Part shown: positions 28,889 to 35,972 of the stretch, piece after piece
How the letters are laid out: each line of letters starts with the position of its first letter
Numbering within the stretch: position 1 is the first letter of the stretch
DNA from: Dysgonamonadaceae bacterium
GTDB taxonomy: Bacteria; Bacteroidota; Bacteroidia; Bacteroidales; Azobacteroidaceae
NCBI GenBank assembly: GCA_031259075.1
Contig: JAIRLY010000329.1
Coordinates: forward strand, 1-35,972
Length of the DNA: 35,972 bases
Reading direction: 5' to 3'
Notes under the pieces: generated by a model
What the model was told of the DNA's origin: nothing
Seen by the model: only the letters and a program-made list of their open reading frames with translations
Database searches by the model: none
Position numbers and translations under genes: made by a program

Positions 28889-29440
28889 ATGTATAAGGAA
28901 CTCACTGAACGGCTAAATCAAGTATTAAGACGTAAAAATGTCATTGTGAAACTTTGGAACGAAGAAAAATTTAACAAATGTACATCTGAAGAACTGAAAA
29001 TATTTACTTCGGAACTGGAACAGGGCGCGATGAAAAATGTCCCTTGCTACGAATCGAATAAACGAGGGAAAAACTGGATGGCTAAAATCAGCATCAATCC
29101 GGGAGCGCCAAACGGTATGAATCGAGTGTTCTGTAAGCGTGCTTATGGTGATTTTTACTATTTTGTAGATGAATTAAATGTTAACGACATTGTCGAATTT
29201 GGTGCAGATTATTATTACGGTCGAGGAAACAGATCTTCTCACAGAGAGTATGGAGTTATCATCTCGTTGTCTGAAGTTGAAATTCAATTTGCACTTTTTG
29301 AAAATCATTATGATGCTTTTCATTTGGTGAAGAAAAATCATTATGATCCTAAACACGGATTACTTCTTGAAAAAGAACGTCTTGAAAAGCGATTGAATGA
29401 AATAAACCAAAAACTCATTGAGAATGGACACATTAGTTGA
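28889..29440 (+). CDS. Uncharacterised protein with C-terminal coiled-coil-like tail
   Basis: Long ORF, first gene of an overlapping operon; no family recognised. Confidence 0.75.
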   Translation: MYKELTERLNQVLRRKNVIVKLWNEEKFNKCTSEELKIFTSELEQGAMKNVPCYESNKRGKNWMAKISINPGAPNGMNRVFCKRAYGDFYYFVDELNVNDIVEFGADYYYGRGNRSSHREYGVIISLSEVEIQFALFENHYDAFHLVKKNHYDPKHGLLLEKERLEKRLNEINQKLIENGHIS

Positions 29441-31079
29441 TATAAAAAATCGGATAAGAGGTTCAAAACTTTGGACGAAAAGTGGAATTACCCGCGTCTA
29501 TCTTCCATATCGCATTAATAAAAAAAATGTAAGAACAGACTGTTACTTAGAAATTATTAATGACAAATTGGAACTATTGGTTAAAGTTAGGTCGCTTTTG
29601 TGGGATGTACACCCTAATTGGTGCGATTTGCAAGCCGAAAAACTGAAAGAAAACCTTACAAAGCAATATTATGAAATTATCCATGATTGCGAAAAGAAAC
29701 GGCGGAAAATTCCGCTTCATATCCGCCTGCAAGATAATACGATCCCTCTATGTCATAACAGTATGTTGCATCAAATTAAAGCGTTAAAATTCCTTTGCTC
29801 TATGAAAGTAGCCGCATATTTTGGCGATACCGGCGTCGGAAAAACGAAAGTAGCGATTGATCTGGCGTCCTCTCGTTTCGTTGCTGGAAAAATAAATAAG
29901 GTGATGGTATTTTGTCCGGTTTCAACCATTGATAATTTCAAAATCGAAGTTAATTTATTTTGCCGGTTCTCAAAGTTAATTTGGCAATATTTTGGGATCG
30001 AAAGTATGAGCATGAGCGATCCGGTTTATCTGGAGGCTTTGAACATGGTCGATAATGAAACTATGATTATCATTGATGAAAGCCATTTTGTGAAAGGAGT
30101 AAAAGCAATCCGTAGCGAAAGAATCAAAAAAGTTTGTGATCGTTGTACATACAAACTGATCATGACCGGAACTCCAACCACGGATAACGTTCATGATTTG
30201 TATATGCAGTACAGTATGTTAAGCGAATTGATAACAGAATGTAAATCATGGTCGAAATTTGCCGAACAATTCCTCATATTAGGTGGTTGGGATTGCAGAC
30301 AAATTATCGGATACAAAAATCTTGAATATTTGACAAGCCTTATTGAACCATACACTTATCAAACATTGAAAAAAGAGTGTCTGCAATTACCGAAAAAATC
30401 ATTCCAAACATTTACTTGTAGACTTACAGAAAATCAGGAATATTACTATTACCTGTTAAAGAAAAAGCTACTTGAAATTATTGAAAATACCAAAGACGAT
30501 AATTTGCGTCCGGAAACGATATTTCTTTATCTGACGCGGATGCAACAAGTATCATGTGGATATATTCGACACGACGACGGACAGTTCGAATATATCGGAA
30601 CAAAAAAATTTGATCTGATAGATAATTATATAGATATTAGTAAGCAAACAATATTTTTTTGTAAATATATATTTGAAGTTGACTTATTGATTGAATATCT
30701 TGGAGATATAAATTGTGTAGAATTTACCGGAAGAAATCGAGGAAACCGCTATGAAAAATTAAAACAATTTTCAGAAGGAAAAAAGAAATATTTTGTAGCA
30801 ACGATGAGTTCCGGAGGAATCGGTTTGAATGGGCTTCAACAATGCAGTCAAATGATCTTTTTTTCCAACTCGTTCAAATATTCGGAGCGAAAACATTCTA
30901 TCGGAAGAATCGACAGGGAAGGGCAAAAAAACCAAATGTTGATAACCGATATGATTACTTCTGCCGGGATTGACTGGAAAATAATACACAATTTGTCTCG
31001 TAAACGTAATTTATCGGATGAAATAAAACGGTTAATAGGAAATAAAATTAAACTCCGAGAGTACATACAATCAATTTAA
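29424..31079 (+). CDS. SNF2-like superfamily 2 helicase/ATPase
   Basis: Motif I YFGDTGVGKTKVA, II IIDESHF, III LIMTGTPTTD, V VATMSSGGIGLNGLQQ, VI HSIGRIDREGQ. Confidence 0.9.
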   Translation: MDTLVDIKNRIRGSKLWTKSGITRVYLPYRINKKNVRTDCYLEIINDKLELLVKVRSLLWDVHPNWCDLQAEKLKENLTKQYYEIIHDCEKKRRKIPLHIRLQDNTIPLCHNSMLHQIKALKFLCSMKVAAYFGDTGVGKTKVAIDLASSRFVAGKINKVMVFCPVSTIDNFKIEVNLFCRFSKLIWQYFGIESMSMSDPVYLEALNMVDNETMIIIDESHFVKGVKAIRSERIKKVCDRCTYKLIMTGTPTTDNVHDLYMQYSMLSELITECKSWSKFAEQFLILGGWDCRQIIGYKNLEYLTSLIEPYTYQTLKKECLQLPKKSFQTFTCRLTENQEYYYYLLKKKLLEIIENTKDDNLRPETIFLYLTRMQQVSCGYIRHDDGQFEYIGTKKFDLIDNYIDISKQTIFFCKYIFEVDLLIEYLGDINCVEFTGRNRGNRYEKLKQFSEGKKKYFVATMSSGGIGLNGLQQCSQMIFFSNSFKYSERKHSIGRIDREGQKNQMLITDMITSAGIDWKIIHNLSRKRNLSDEIKRLIGNKIKLREYIQSI

Positions 31080-31133
31080 ATTACTACTTTTATATTTTAG
31101 AACTCATTTTTAACTCTTAATTCATTTATTTGT

Positions 31134-31574
31134 ATGAATAAAAATATTCGATTTGAAGTTTTCCACGGCTTAGATGAACACGTGTATCGCTATGTAGCGC
31201 CTTATGCCATGACAATGTCTTACATTAAACGTAATGGAAACCCAATTACTACATCCGAAAAGCACAGTTGGTATGTAGGATTCGATGAAGATAATCAGAT
31301 GGTTTGTTTCTGTTCCGTAAAAGCTCAGAATAAAGCTAAAAAAATGCAAATTGGGAACTTGTTTATTTTTTCAAGAGAGAAAAAAATTTTTAATTTACTG
31401 GTAAAAAAGCTGATTAAAGATATTGCAAGCAAAGGAATATCTTTGGCGGCGTATGCCAATAATGAAAACAAAAACTGGTTTGTATTGTTAGGATTTGAAA
31501 CCGTTCGCACCGGCGTCAACTGGCATAACATGAAATATAATGACCGTTTACGAGGCAACAATAAAAAGACTTGA
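31134..31574 (+). CDS. GNAT-like/unknown small protein
   Basis: MQIGNLFIFSREKKIFNLLVKKLIKDIASKGISLAAYANNENKNWFVLLGFETVRTG resembles a GNAT-fold C-terminal half. Confidence 0.55.
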   Translation: MNKNIRFEVFHGLDEHVYRYVAPYAMTMSYIKRNGNPITTSEKHSWYVGFDEDNQMVCFCSVKAQNKAKKMQIGNLFIFSREKKIFNLLVKKLIKDIASKGISLAAYANNENKNWFVLLGFETVRTGVNWHNMKYNDRLRGNNKKT

Positions 31575-32832
31575 ATTTGTATTTTCGGAATTTGAATATG
31601 TATATGTTTCATTCTCAGGAGGTAAAGACAGTGGAGTATTACTCAATATCGCTATAGATTACGTCAGAGAACATTATCAAGACAGGAGGCTTGGTGTTTT
31701 TCACATTGACTATGAAGCGCAATATCAGTTCACAACCGATTATGTAAAACAAATTTTCGATTCCTTACCCAATTTCTGCGATAAATATTGGGTTGCCATT
31801 CCGTTGACAGTTCCGTCCTGTACCAGTATGTACAGCAACCATTGGATACCTTGGAATATACCTGAAAAAGATATTTGGGTGCGCCAATTACCGGAAGAAA
31901 GCATTAATATCCTGAATCATAAATTTGATTTCTATGAGTACGGAATGTTGGATTATGATTTTCAAAGACAGTTCGGGGATTGGATTCAACGAAAGACAGG
32001 AAAAAAAACGGCTTGCCTGGTTGGTATTCGGAGTAGAGAAAGTATAGACAGGCGCATTATGCTTGCCAATAGATTTAATGAGCGTAAATACAAAGATATT
32101 CTTTGGAGTACCGGAGGCTTATCGGATAGCCGGTTGCAATATAATTTTTATCCAATTCACGATTGGACTTCGGAAGACATTTGGATATACAACGGACGGT
32201 TTTGTAAACCATACAATAAATTATATGATTTGTTTTACAAAGCCGGTTTAAGCGTCGACCAAATGCGCGTTGCCAGCCCTTTTCTTTCGCAGGGACTGAA
32301 AACACTGCATTTATATAAAGTGATCGAGCCGAATACATGGGGACGAGTAGTAAGCCGTGTCAACGGCGTGAATTTTGCCGGAATATATGGCGGAACAACT
32401 GCTATGGGCTGGAAATCAATTAAAAAACCAAAAAGTCATACATGGAAATCATACCTCAAGTTTTTATTGTCTACACTACCGGAAAATACCCGTAATGCAT
32501 ACATCAAAAAATTCAAAGTATCGGAGGAATTTTGGAGCAAACGGGGTGGGGTATTGGGAGATGATGTAATTGGCGAAATCCAAGAAAATACGGATGCAAA
32601 GATTGAAATTATTGAAGAATCAAATTACAAAACAACAAAACGCACAGTGAAATTTCTCGAATATCCGGATGAACTGAATATCAGTGAATTTCAGGCTGTT
32701 CCATCCTACAAACGTATGGTTGTGTGTATCTTAAAAAACGACCACCTTTGCAAATACATGGGTTTTACAATGACAAAAGAAGAAATCGAAAGAAGAAAAA
32801 ATATAATGGAGAAGTATAAAAATACGCTATGA
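31540..32832 (+). CDS. DUF3440 PAPS-reductase-like (PP-loop) protein, IbrA/YbdN family
   Basis: PP-loop VYVSFSGGKDSGVLLNIA; FDFYEYGMLDYDFQRQFGDW; C-terminal SYKRMVVCILKNDHLCKYMGFTMTKEE typical of DUF3440. Confidence 0.9.
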   Translation: MTVYEATIKRLEFVFSEFEYVYVSFSGGKDSGVLLNIAIDYVREHYQDRRLGVFHIDYEAQYQFTTDYVKQIFDSLPNFCDKYWVAIPLTVPSCTSMYSNHWIPWNIPEKDIWVRQLPEESINILNHKFDFYEYGMLDYDFQRQFGDWIQRKTGKKTACLVGIRSRESIDRRIMLANRFNERKYKDILWSTGGLSDSRLQYNFYPIHDWTSEDIWIYNGRFCKPYNKLYDLFYKAGLSVDQMRVASPFLSQGLKTLHLYKVIEPNTWGRVVSRVNGVNFAGIYGGTTAMGWKSIKKPKSHTWKSYLKFLLSTLPENTRNAYIKKFKVSEEFWSKRGGVLGDDVIGEIQENTDAKIEIIEESNYKTTKRTVKFLEYPDELNISEFQAVPSYKRMVVCILKNDHLCKYMGFTMTKEEIERRKNIMEKYKNTL

Positions 32833-33365
32833 TGCAACAAAATGAAGTCAATGCGAGTTACAAAAGTCCGGTGTATAATGTGATCGCTGTACCTGTGGAG
32901 AAAGTACAGGCAAACAGCTACAATCCGAACACTGTTGCACCGCCGGAAATGCAATTACTATACAAATCGATAAAAGAAGACGGCTATACGATGCCGATTG
33001 TCTGCTATTATCTACCCGAAATCGACTGCTACGAAATTGTAGATGGTTTTCACCGTTATACTATAATGCTGAAACACAAAGATATATACGACCGCGAAAA
33101 TGGAATGATACCGGTGGTAGTAATCAATAAAGACATATCAAACCGGATGGCTTCTACTATACGACATAACCGTGCACGCGGTATACATAATATCGAATTG
33201 ATGAGTAATGTGGTTTCCGAATTAACAAAATCCGGTATGTCGGATGCTTGGATCATGAAAAACATAGGGATGGATGCCGATGAATTGCTACGTTTAAAAC
33301 AAATATCAGGTTTGGCTGATTTATTCGCAAATAAAGAATTTTCCGAAGCAAATAATATACTGTAA
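32829..33365 (+). CDS. ParB/sulfiredoxin-fold protein, IbrB/YbdM family
   Basis: VPVEKVQANSYNPN, YEIVDGFHRYTIM, TIRHNRARGIHNIELMSNVVSELTKSGMSDAWIMKNIGM; ATGA overlap with the DUF3440 gene. Confidence 0.9.
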   Translation: MMQQNEVNASYKSPVYNVIAVPVEKVQANSYNPNTVAPPEMQLLYKSIKEDGYTMPIVCYYLPEIDCYEIVDGFHRYTIMLKHKDIYDRENGMIPVVVINKDISNRMASTIRHNRARGIHNIELMSNVVSELTKSGMSDAWIMKNIGMDADELLRLKQISGLADLFANKEFSEANNIL

Positions 33366-33607
33366 TGGCAAAATATCCTAAATTTTTCATCGCTAAAAAT
33401 CTGATGGCAGATCCGGATGGTATTTATATTTTTCACAGCAGAAAACCGCGTTTTTTGGCAAAAGTGGAAAATAGCGCTTTTGAAATAATGGACGATATTG
33501 ACAATGCTTCGGAATATTATCATGGCGATGCGGATAAATTGAATAAATTAATTAAACGCATGATAGACTGGTATAAATTATATAGAATACAAAAATGGCA
33601 GAAATAG
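33365..33607 (+). CDS. Small hypothetical protein
   Basis: 80-aa ORF translationally coupled (TAATG) to the ParB-like gene. Confidence 0.6.
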   Translation: MAKYPKFFIAKNLMADPDGIYIFHSRKPRFLAKVENSAFEIMDDIDNASEYYHGDADKLNKLIKRMIDWYKLYRIQKWQK

Positions 33608-33807
33608 ATAAATTTACGGAGAAAATTAAATATCTGAAATGTCGCAGTTTTTTTCCGGATTATTGCGGTATAAGATATACTTCAGGGATACTTCGTAAAC
33701 TTTCCGGAAAGAATGCAAATGGAAATCCCGGAAAATTCACAGACGAGCAAAAAAAAACAATTATAGAGGGATTGGAAAAATTTATATCTGAAATAAAAAC
33801 ATTATAA
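33595..33807 (+). CDS. Small hypothetical protein
   Basis: 70-aa ORF overlapping the preceding ORF by 13 nt. Confidence 0.55.
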   Translation: MAEIDKFTEKIKYLKCRSFFPDYCGIRYTSGILRKLSGKNANGNPGKFTDEQKKTIIEGLEKFISEIKTL

Positions 33808-34052
33808 AAAACACTGACAAATTTCCTCCGGTCGATGACCTGCGATTATGAAAATTACATCCTACCAGGACTTTTGAGACGGCATTATTCATTATTCATT
33901 TTACATTTAATTCCTAATTCTTTGTAATATTTATTGTTTTTCTAAATCACTAATTTTGTCCGATTTTTAAACAAATTTTTCAATTTTTCATAAAGAAACA
34001 GACAGTATTTTTTAACATTATATATTAATTGAGAAAGCGTTAGCTTATATTC

Positions 34053-34231
34053 TTGCTTACAGAAATATCGACAATTTCAGCATATACAAGGATAAGTTAG
34101 TAAGCGCTCACGTGGATGCGTGGGTATAACTTATTTGTATATGCGGGTAGTCGATAACCTCTGTAAGCAAATAAAGTTAAAAGTCCCACGCTTCGTATTT
34201 TTAAACCGCTTCTCTTCGGGACCTGGAAGCG
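34053..34231 (+). ncRNA. Candidate structured RNA: nested long stem with apical hairpin, possible pseudoknot and 3' hairpin
   Basis: Stems TTGCTTACAG/CTGTAAGCAA, TATCGAC/GTCGATA, GCATATACAA/TTGTATATGC, ATAAGTTA/TAACTTAT, CTCACG/CGTGGG; GCGTGGG (34118-34124) complementary to CCCACGC (34185-34191); CGCTTC/GAAGCG. Confidence 0.55.
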
Positions 34232-34316
34232 AACTAAGAACTAAGAGTTAAAAACTAAAAGTTAAAAGTTAAGAATGGACGCCGCGCCTGTATCACAATA
34301 GTTTATTCCGGTCGAA

Positions 34317-34385
34317 GGTAAAGACAACTATTCGAATCAAAAAATCATTTTTCTCATTGTTTAATAAAAGCCGGTTGTCTTTACC
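34317..34385. repeat. Inverted repeat GGTAAAGACAAC ... GTTGTCTTTACC
   Basis: Perfect 12-bp arms (34317-34328 / 34374-34385). Confidence 0.9.
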
Positions 34386-34427
34386 GGAGACGGAAATTGA
34401 GAACTAAGAGTTAAGAACTAAGAGTTA

Positions 34428-34543
34428 AGAATGGAAAATAGAGAATAGAGAAAGGAAGGCCGGAGGCCTTCAATATGAATAACCCCCAATGAAGCGAAGC
34501 GATTGGGGGGACAAACAAAAAACAGCGACGCTTTCAACCCCGA
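34428..34543 (+). repeat. Hairpin-containing repeat element, copy 2
   Basis: gaatggaaaatagagaa...aaggccggaggcctt...gaataacccccaatgaagcgaagcgattgggggg...gcgacgctttcaacccc; inverted match to 238-350. Confidence 0.8.
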
Positions 34544-34623: not shown

Positions 34624-34968
34624 ATGAAACAAAAGATGATTTTTTTGATGCTGATGCTCTTCGTTTTGAGCGCGGCAAGTGTGAAAGCACAGGTATTAAT
34701 CGGCGGCGAGGTAGACGATGAACCGCACAGTGGGGCTATCCTGGATTTATCCCTCCTGGGTACACAAAAATTAGGCTTACTGTTGCCGAATGTGGAATTA
34801 GGCACAACGGCTACCGACTTTATGTTGGTGGCTGATGCGAGCGAGGAACAAAAAACCACTGCTTGCGGAATGGTGGTTTACAATACAAAGTCCGGCGTTT
34901 TGAACGGCGTCGGTCTTTATGTCTGGACGGGTAGTAAGTGGGTCGTAGTCGCTTTAGCCGGAAGCTAA
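34624..34968 (+). CDS. Small secreted protein with GLLLPNV...GMVVYNT...YVWTGSKW surface-protein module
   Basis: Signal peptide MKQKMIFLMLMLFVLSAASVKAQ; module shared with the downstream gene. Confidence 0.8.
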   Translation: MKQKMIFLMLMLFVLSAASVKAQVLIGGEVDDEPHSGAILDLSLLGTQKLGLLLPNVELGTTATDFMLVADASEEQKTTACGMVVYNTKSGVLNGVGLYVWTGSKWVVVALAGS

Positions 34969-34993: not shown

Positions 34994-35972
34994 ATGAGAA
35001 AAATACTTTATTTCGTATTACTGCTGCTCATGAGTAGCGGTAATCTTTCGGCTCAGGTAAGTATTGGCTCGGAAGACGGGCCTCGGCCCGGCGCCGGTCT
35101 GGATTTGAACAGTAAAACGAAAGGACTGTTATTGCCGAATGTATCTCTTTCTGCTCCGGCCACCGAATTTCAATTGAGCGGCGGTGATCCGGCCACAGCG
35201 AGCGGGATGCTGGTTTATAATACAAGCGACGATTTGGATGGCCCCGGTGTTTATGTCTGGGACGGTAGCAAATGGATTTTAAATACCTGTGTTCCGGCAA
35301 CTCCTACCGGTATTACGTTCTCTAAAACGGCGAACATTAAATTGGATGAAACGATCACTGCCACGGCTACTCCCGAAGTTACGTTCGGGAACGCGAAACC
35401 GAATCACTATAATTGGACAATTCCCGACAACTATTTTGAGATTCTCGACAGTGAGAATACACGGGTTATCAAGCTCAAAGCCAAAGCCGCCGGCTCGTCG
35501 ATTACCGGTACAATAAAAGTAAATGCGGAGAATGCCTGCGATAAGAGCGCCGATTATAGTAATACTACCGCTCTCAACATTTTAGATTGTTCTGATGTTC
35601 CGGCTACACCGGGTACAATTGAGTTTTCTGCAACAACCGTTAATCTGACCGGCATGTTTACAGCTTCGGTACCTGAAGTGACTACGGGCACACAAATTCC
35701 GACGTCCTATACATGGACATTGCCGAGCGGCCTGACCGGTTCGTCTACATCACGTTCAATTACCATTACGGGCGCAACAGCCGGAACGTATGCAGTGGGC
35801 GAAATCCAGGTGACGGCAACCAATGTCTGCGGAACGAGTGCGGCACAAAGCAACGCTTCGGCAGTGACGGTTCATCCTTGTACGGCTGCTCCGACAATTT
35901 CGTCTCCTGTTGCGGATGAAACGAAAATCACTAAAGTGAATGTAGAGCTTCTGTCGGAGTTGTCGATTACCG
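34994..35972 (+). CDS. Secreted surface protein with the same N-terminal module followed by PKD-like repeats; runs off the window (absent from the supplied ORF track)
   Basis: Frame open from ATG 34994: MRKILYFVLLLLMSSGNLSAQVSIGSEDGPRPGAGLDLNSKTKGLLLPNVSL...GMLVYNTSDDLDGPGVYVWDGSKWILNTCVPATPTGITFSK... to the last base. Confidence 0.88.
   Translation, partial: MRKILYFVLLLLMSSGNLSAQVSIGSEDGPRPGAGLDLNSKTKGLLLPNVSLSAPATEFQLSGGDPATASGMLVYNTSDDLDGPGVYVWDGSKWILNTCVPATPTGITFSKTANIKLDETITATATPEVTFGNAKPNHYNWTIPDNYFEILDSENTRVIKLKAKAAGSSITGTIKVNAENACDKSADYSNTTALNILDCSDVPATPGTIEFSATTVNLTGMFTASVPEVTTGTQIPTSYTWTLPSGLTGSSTSRSITITGATAGTYAVGEIQVTATNVCGTSAAQSNASAVTVHPCTAAPTISSPVADETKITKVNVELLSELSIT

Follow-up and report, generated by a model that had tools for sequence, protein, structure and literature searches.

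What is the function of an elaborately foldable stretch, with no gene in it, that lies close to the 3' end of the window (the whole 35,972-nucleotide stretch of DNA analysed here)? The preliminary description proposed a candidate novel structured RNA at 34053-34231 and offered three functions for it: a trans-acting ncRNA, a riboswitch-like leader or a mobile structured element. The nested helices and the apical hairpin on which that proposal relied were all found where it had placed them, and the stretch is indeed free of genes, the ORF listing giving only a mechanical ORF of 43 amino acids. The minimum free energy of 34053-34231 was −60.1 kcal/mol, compared with −37.5±3.7 kcal/mol for shuffled controls (z −6.16; none of 200 shuffles as low). 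The element proved to be slightly longer than first reported, starting at AAGCGTTAGCTT (34035) with its conserved part ending in GGGAC (34222). Its parts, the promoter box upstream and the genes behind it are as follows.

33951-33958, + strand: Bacteroidota-type −7 promoter box TAATTTTG (TANNTTTG)
34035-34222, + strand: structured RNA element as modelled (P0 to d), 217.7 bits in cmsearch with model R1
34035-34040, + strand: P0 5' strand AAGCGT, complementary to the final bases of c (ACGCTT)
34053-34063, + strand: P1 5' strand, hypervariable, complementary to 34160-34170
34066-34072, + strand: P2 5' strand TATCGAC, variable (covariation, helix 2)
34080-34089, + strand: lower P3 5' strand GCATATACAA, variable (covariation, helix 3)
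34106-34112, + strand: strand a, GCTCACG, 5' side of the apical hairpin, partner b
34118-34124, + strand: strand b, GCGTGGG, partner a or c
34135-34144, + strand: lower P3 3' strand TTGTATATGC (covariation, helix 3)
34150-34156, + strand: P2 3' strand GTCGATA (covariation, helix 2)
34160-34170, + strand: P1 3' strand, complementary to 34053-34063
34183-34191, + strand: strand c, GTCCCACGC, partner b, the P0 5' strand or d
34192-34202, + strand: U-rich stretch TTCGTATTTTT 3' of c, an uninterrupted U-run in most relatives
34207-34231, + strand: 3' hairpin CGCTTC...GAAGCG (stems 34207-34212/34226-34231), as described earlier; its loop carries d
34218-34222, + strand: strand d, GGGAC, complementary to c
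34624-34968, + strand: first gene behind the element, a 114-residue secreted protein (MKQKMIFLMLM...AQVLIGG), a short member of the family found behind other copies
34994-35971, + strand: second gene, another secreted member of that family, bearing PKD-like domains (PF19408 PKD_6, E 1e-16), running off the window

The fold also contains an upper P3 helix (GATAAGTTA/TAACTTAT), and the apical hairpin GCTCACG/CGTGGG pairs 34106-34112 with 34119-34124.

The element is highly repeated in its own genome. A DNA search of the assembly (G000; 3.80 Mb in 424 contigs, 97% complete but fragmented) found 40 copies at 83-90% identity, and R1, a covariance model built from 39 of these, found 79, including a few partial or decayed ones. 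Aligned copies share a near-invariant framework (AAGCGTTAGCTTATATTCTTG ... GAAA ... ACAATTTC ... AAGAATAAG ... CGCTCACGTTGGATGCGTGGG ... ACTTATTTG ... GGGTA ... ACCTC ... ATAAAGTTAAAAGTCCCACGCTTCGTATTTTTAAACCGCTTCTCTTCGGGAC), within which three stems differ in nearly every copy with their complementarity kept. In A1, a plain MAFFT alignment of 39 own-genome copies that was not fitted to any structure, 97.7% of the cells of the window fold are paired, 21 of 46 pairs show double changes and 271 cells are compensatory; the covariation score is 0.452, compared with 0.159 for shuffled alignments and about 0.06 with the partners slid. For P1 (helix 1), the own-genome copies are 98.5% paired, with double changes in 7 of 11 pairs. 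Such compensatory change in other copies is the strongest proof that the nested helices and apical hairpin did not arise by chance.

The pattern of substitution also identifies the strand under selection. The stems contain 204 G-U pairs and 12 A-C mismatches in the own genome, and 662 and 70 respectively in the relatives; because G-U pairs are so far in excess of A-C mismatches, the + strand RNA is the selected molecule. This bears directly on a DNA-level explanation, in which the element would be a MITE-like repeat, an attC-like folded recombination site or a cassette for shuffling surface-protein genes, perhaps linked to a DGR. Such an explanation would account for the 79 dispersed copies, which share a sharp left edge about 130 nt 5' of the element, for the variable stems within a fixed structure, for the mosaic reuse of stems among copies and for the assembly breaks just 3' of the element. 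However, selection on DNA would show no strand preference, the element keeps a fixed orientation to promoter and gene, and it is widely spread before unrelated genes. We regard a DNA-level element as highly improbable; attC or MITE was rejected as the main reading because the G-U pairs favour one strand and the orientation relative to promoter and gene is constant, and the mobile element of the preliminary description is unsupported as a general explanation.

The copies have diverged very unevenly. Variable stem positions are only 38-53% identical between own copies (near saturation), whereas identity is about 86% in the flanks and 94% in the unpaired framework. In 12 copy pairs (1.8 expected) the P3 stems are the same and the P1 stems are no more alike than average, and this sharing of P3 beside unrelated P1 suggests that whole nested modules may have been exchanged between copies. 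As a speculation, a need to keep some 80 similar transcripts from pairing with one another would account for the maintained diversity of the stems.

The element is by no means confined to this genome. R1 detected it in 21 of 41 near genomes. With R2, a model from 29 diverse copies, 148 of the 343 genomes searched within the order proved to carry it, representing 96 of 191 genera, and with R3 it was found in 32 of 247 genomes drawn from the phylum as a whole, some of them belonging to other orders of the class or to other classes. The model E-values are rough throughout. Plasmids of Chryseobacterium shandongense and Rhizosphaericola mali carry named copies (97-100 bits with R3); the first annotated gene behind the copy in C. 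shandongense, about 850 nt away, encodes a T9SS-sorted protein. Viral contigs and phages gave no match to the element. In A6, an alignment of 101 relatives which, like all of A2-A7, is fitted to a model and leans to it (only A1 and the b:c test described below are free of this), the nested structure has a covariation score of 0.598, compared with 0.182 for shuffled alignments, and 1187 compensatory cells. Rfam 15 at gathering thresholds matched neither the window copy nor any of 20 loci of relatives, and permissive scans gave only sub-threshold chance matches, far below threshold. The very strong covariation among homologues and the absence from Rfam support the earlier reading as a candidate novel structured RNA; judged from these comparisons of sequence, the element is an uncatalogued structured RNA spread across the Bacteroidota. 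No description of such a leader was found in the papers searched, an unnamed earlier listing (e.g. in the motif list of PMC8040213) being possible.

The surroundings of the copies are as regular as their folds. The TANNTTTG box lies about 83 nt 5' of the element in 70 of 80 own copies (shuffled mean 5.6) and at −115 to −20 in 66 of 100 relatives (shuffled 6.4), and in many other copies TTTG stands 19 nt further 5' of the box, compared with 14 nt in the window copy. For 94 relatives the downstream sequence was long enough to be read. In 89 of these the following gene has the same orientation as the element and its ATG lies at a median distance of 51 nt, which is the position of a leader RNA shortly before a coding gene. 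A signal-peptide-like start, judged by a simple and crude rule, was seen in 68 of these 89 downstream genes, compared with 29% of own-genome ORFs, a background that itself contains the secreted-protein family. Judged from sequence starts, the downstream genes in relatives include PKD, TPR and CsgG-like proteins and, in family f119, SusC/TonB-type receptors about 204 nt on; lipoproteins are also among them, and a minority are XRE- or LytTR-like regulators. Copies at L057 and L065 (XRE-like) and at L147 and L149 (LytTR-like) stand directly before small DNA-binding regulators, and L057 has two copies, each before a near-identical XRE-like gene.

In the own genome, almost all intact copies with sufficient contig sequence behind them precede one secreted-protein family (MKQKMIFLALTL...AQVxIGG...), many members of which have a C-terminal Fib_succ_major domain; many other copies lie at contig ends, and thus their downstream genes could not be read. 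The assembly holds 56 Fib_succ_major ORFs, e.g. the genes in L013, L019, L037 and L039. A regulon consisting of FISUMP proteins only was considered and rejected, as in relatives the element precedes many other exported proteins and a few regulators. The Fib_succ_major proteins share an N-terminus and have variable C-termini (FWSSS...AWxR...SVRCKK) resembling DGR variable proteins. The DGR idea prompted by these C-termini was rejected because no DGR reverse transcriptase was found in the own assembly (97% complete, fragmented); the sole RVT_1 ORF (L048, G000:C329) looks like a group II intron protein, which it probably is, and seemingly interrupts a topoisomerase gene.

The same surroundings bear on the main rival, an independent trans-acting sRNA with its own promoter, a structured body and an end at the U-run, for which the proximity of genes would reflect linkage or shared origin. 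A promoter box close 5' of the element and a U-run right after a GC-rich strand able to pair are what such an sRNA would have, and multicopy sRNA families, e.g. FopS, act on SusC genes in Bacteroides (PMC11697453). Against this, the same-strand gene follows closely in 89 of 94 relatives, and a second TANNTTTG box in the gap between element and gene was found in only 4 of 89 cases, leaving 85 without one. Furthermore, the element has no conserved single-stranded seed, most of its conserved unpaired bases lying in the internal loops of one hairpin, and copies before different genes keep the element rather than a common target sequence. We therefore consider the trans-acting sRNA unlikely, although it ranks above the other rivals. 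Of the three functions first suggested, the promoter and the gene context favour the riboswitch-like leader.

The preliminary description had noted that GCGTGGG (34118-34124) is perfectly complementary to CCCACGC (34185-34191) downstream, with a pseudoknot or an alternative pairing as the possible outcome. The complementarity is as claimed, and b:c covaries even though it is absent from the alignment models, so that its conservation is a fair test. In this test, 91.7% of b:c cells are paired, compared with 29-61% when the partners are slid, and the 15 double-change cells exceed all 500 shuffles. The mean complementarity of each b with its own c is 21.26, compared with a maximum of 20.07 in 200 permutations. 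Off-consensus b strands are often matched by off-consensus c strands, and in L056, L059, L062, L064, L149, L172 and one L057 copy the copy's own c is a better partner of b than the consensus c.

Both strands have another conserved partner. The pairing a:b (helix 9) is present in 99.7% of cells in 101 relatives, compensatory changes included, and the P0 5' strand is a second partner of c (AAGCGT:ACGCTT), likewise with covariation, 94.9% of P0 cells in the relatives being paired, with compensatory changes among them. There are thus two covarying sets of helices: state 1 consists of P0:c plus a:b and forms one long nested hairpin, and state 2 consists of b:c. As b:c breaks both P0:c and a:b, the two states cannot coexist, and two exclusive conserved pairings of this kind are a trait of riboswitches and attenuators. 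We infer from these sequence patterns that the RNA may move between the two states. This result also bears on the proposal that the element is a passive 5' structure, protecting the 5' part of the mRNA from decay or insulating the gene without any switching. The very stable fold and the leader position agree with that proposal, but it needs neither conserved internal loops nor a covarying b:c helix, and we consider it improbable, more so than the sRNA.

A U-run (at least 7 T in 9 nt) follows c directly in 93 of 101 relatives. Strand d (GGGAC) occurs 3' of the U-run in 24 of 100 relatives (1.8 in shuffled sequences), and the longer TTGGGAC in 13 of 100 (0.16 in shuffled sequences). A pattern scan for + strand terminators found none in the window.

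Taken together, the element is best explained as a cis-acting, two-state 5' leader that follows a Bacteroidota-type promoter and precedes exported-protein genes, riboswitch- or attenuator-like in its action, a reading drawn from sequence to which we assign a probability of about 0.6. Starting at the upstream promoter, transcription would pass through the element and continue into the gene. The choice between the states might depend on a ligand, on a protein or on the course of folding; b:c against the U-run would act as a termination (or RNA-processing) signal, and in read-through RNA c could pair with d near the start codon. Expression of surface and secreted proteins would thereby be switched. 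It is clear that, in this genome, the leader has multiplied along with a paralogous secreted-protein family.

Several features sit less well with the two-state leader. The partner b lies about 55 nt from c, and the resulting b:c loop is unlike that of ordinary intrinsic terminators. P0:c abuts the U-run too, so that both states could stop transcription, and d, being 3' of the U-run, cannot act on termination. The window copy has an interrupted U-run, and 402 nt separate the element from the start of its first gene; in the own genome this distance is about 400 nt, far greater than in most relatives. With its short promoter spacing, interrupted U-run and short first gene, the window copy may be a weak member of the family. 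The downstream genes are too varied for a ligand to be named, and as no Rfam class matches, we do not claim any known riboswitch class for the element. A broader proposal, which we put forward only tentatively, is that of a new phylum-wide class of ligand- or protein-sensing leaders that would switch batteries of surface and secreted proteins by strand exchange (P0:c plus a:b versus b:c) and whose stems, in genomes with dozens of copies, would be diversified to keep each leader from folding with any other.

The element shares with riboswitches and attenuators the 5' leader position, conserved internal loops, covarying stems, exclusive helices and a U-run after one alternative strand; it differs from them in matching no Rfam riboswitch class, in a regulon of mixed exported proteins, in reaching about 80 copies in one genome and in its very long b:c loop. 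Like the paralogous sRNAs FopS and GibS of Bacteroides (PMC11697453), it is multicopy, occurs in Bacteroidota, has its own promoters and is linked to outer-membrane protein genes. However, FopS consists of a single-stranded 5' seed and a terminator hairpin (PMC11697453), whereas the present element is one long multi-loop hairpin in front of genes, and GibS gave only a chance-level match on the other strand in the permissive Rfam scan. Structured RNAs restricted to Bacteroidota are also known from the 2010 motifs of Weinberg, namely Bacteroidales-1, Bacteroides-1, Bacteroid-trp, Flavo-1 and 6S-flavo (PMC2864571); Flavo-1 is likewise widespread with an unclear function (PMC9723704). All of these motifs with Rfam entries were included in our scans, and none matched the element. 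The BrickBuilt MITE of Porphyromonas gingivalis (PMC4596501) is similarly multicopy and intergenic with long predicted stem-loops, and has promoter activity. It is composed of 23-nt direct repeats and is bidirectional (PMC4596501), whereas our element lacks such repeats, has one orientation and shows strong covariation.

A common conserved leader that Rfam does not contain would give surface-protein genes a further, shared level of control. Bacteroidota live by their surface proteins, which include SusC-type receptors, adhesins, T9SS cargo and lipoproteins. To our knowledge, about 80 copies in one genome would rank among the most repeated cis-acting RNA elements, and stems that are hypervariable yet complementary pose a clean evolutionary question.

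Some further observations concern the sequence around the copies. Between element and gene, the window carries AACTAAG/AGTTAAG heptad tracts (34232-34280 and 34400-34430), the number of which varies among copies, and an inverted repeat, GGTAAAGACAAC...GTTGTCTTTACC (34315-34390), lies 3' of the element and is 89-94% identical in most copies. Upstream in the window, a SNF2-type helicase, a PAPS-reductase/DUF3440 protein, a ParB-like protein and small ORFs are clustered at 28889-33807, and this cluster is probably part of a mobile element. A decayed copy on the − strand of L096 (3860-4040) stands before a tRNA(Ile)-lysidine-synthase-like ORF, and its stems are identical to those of the L027 copy.
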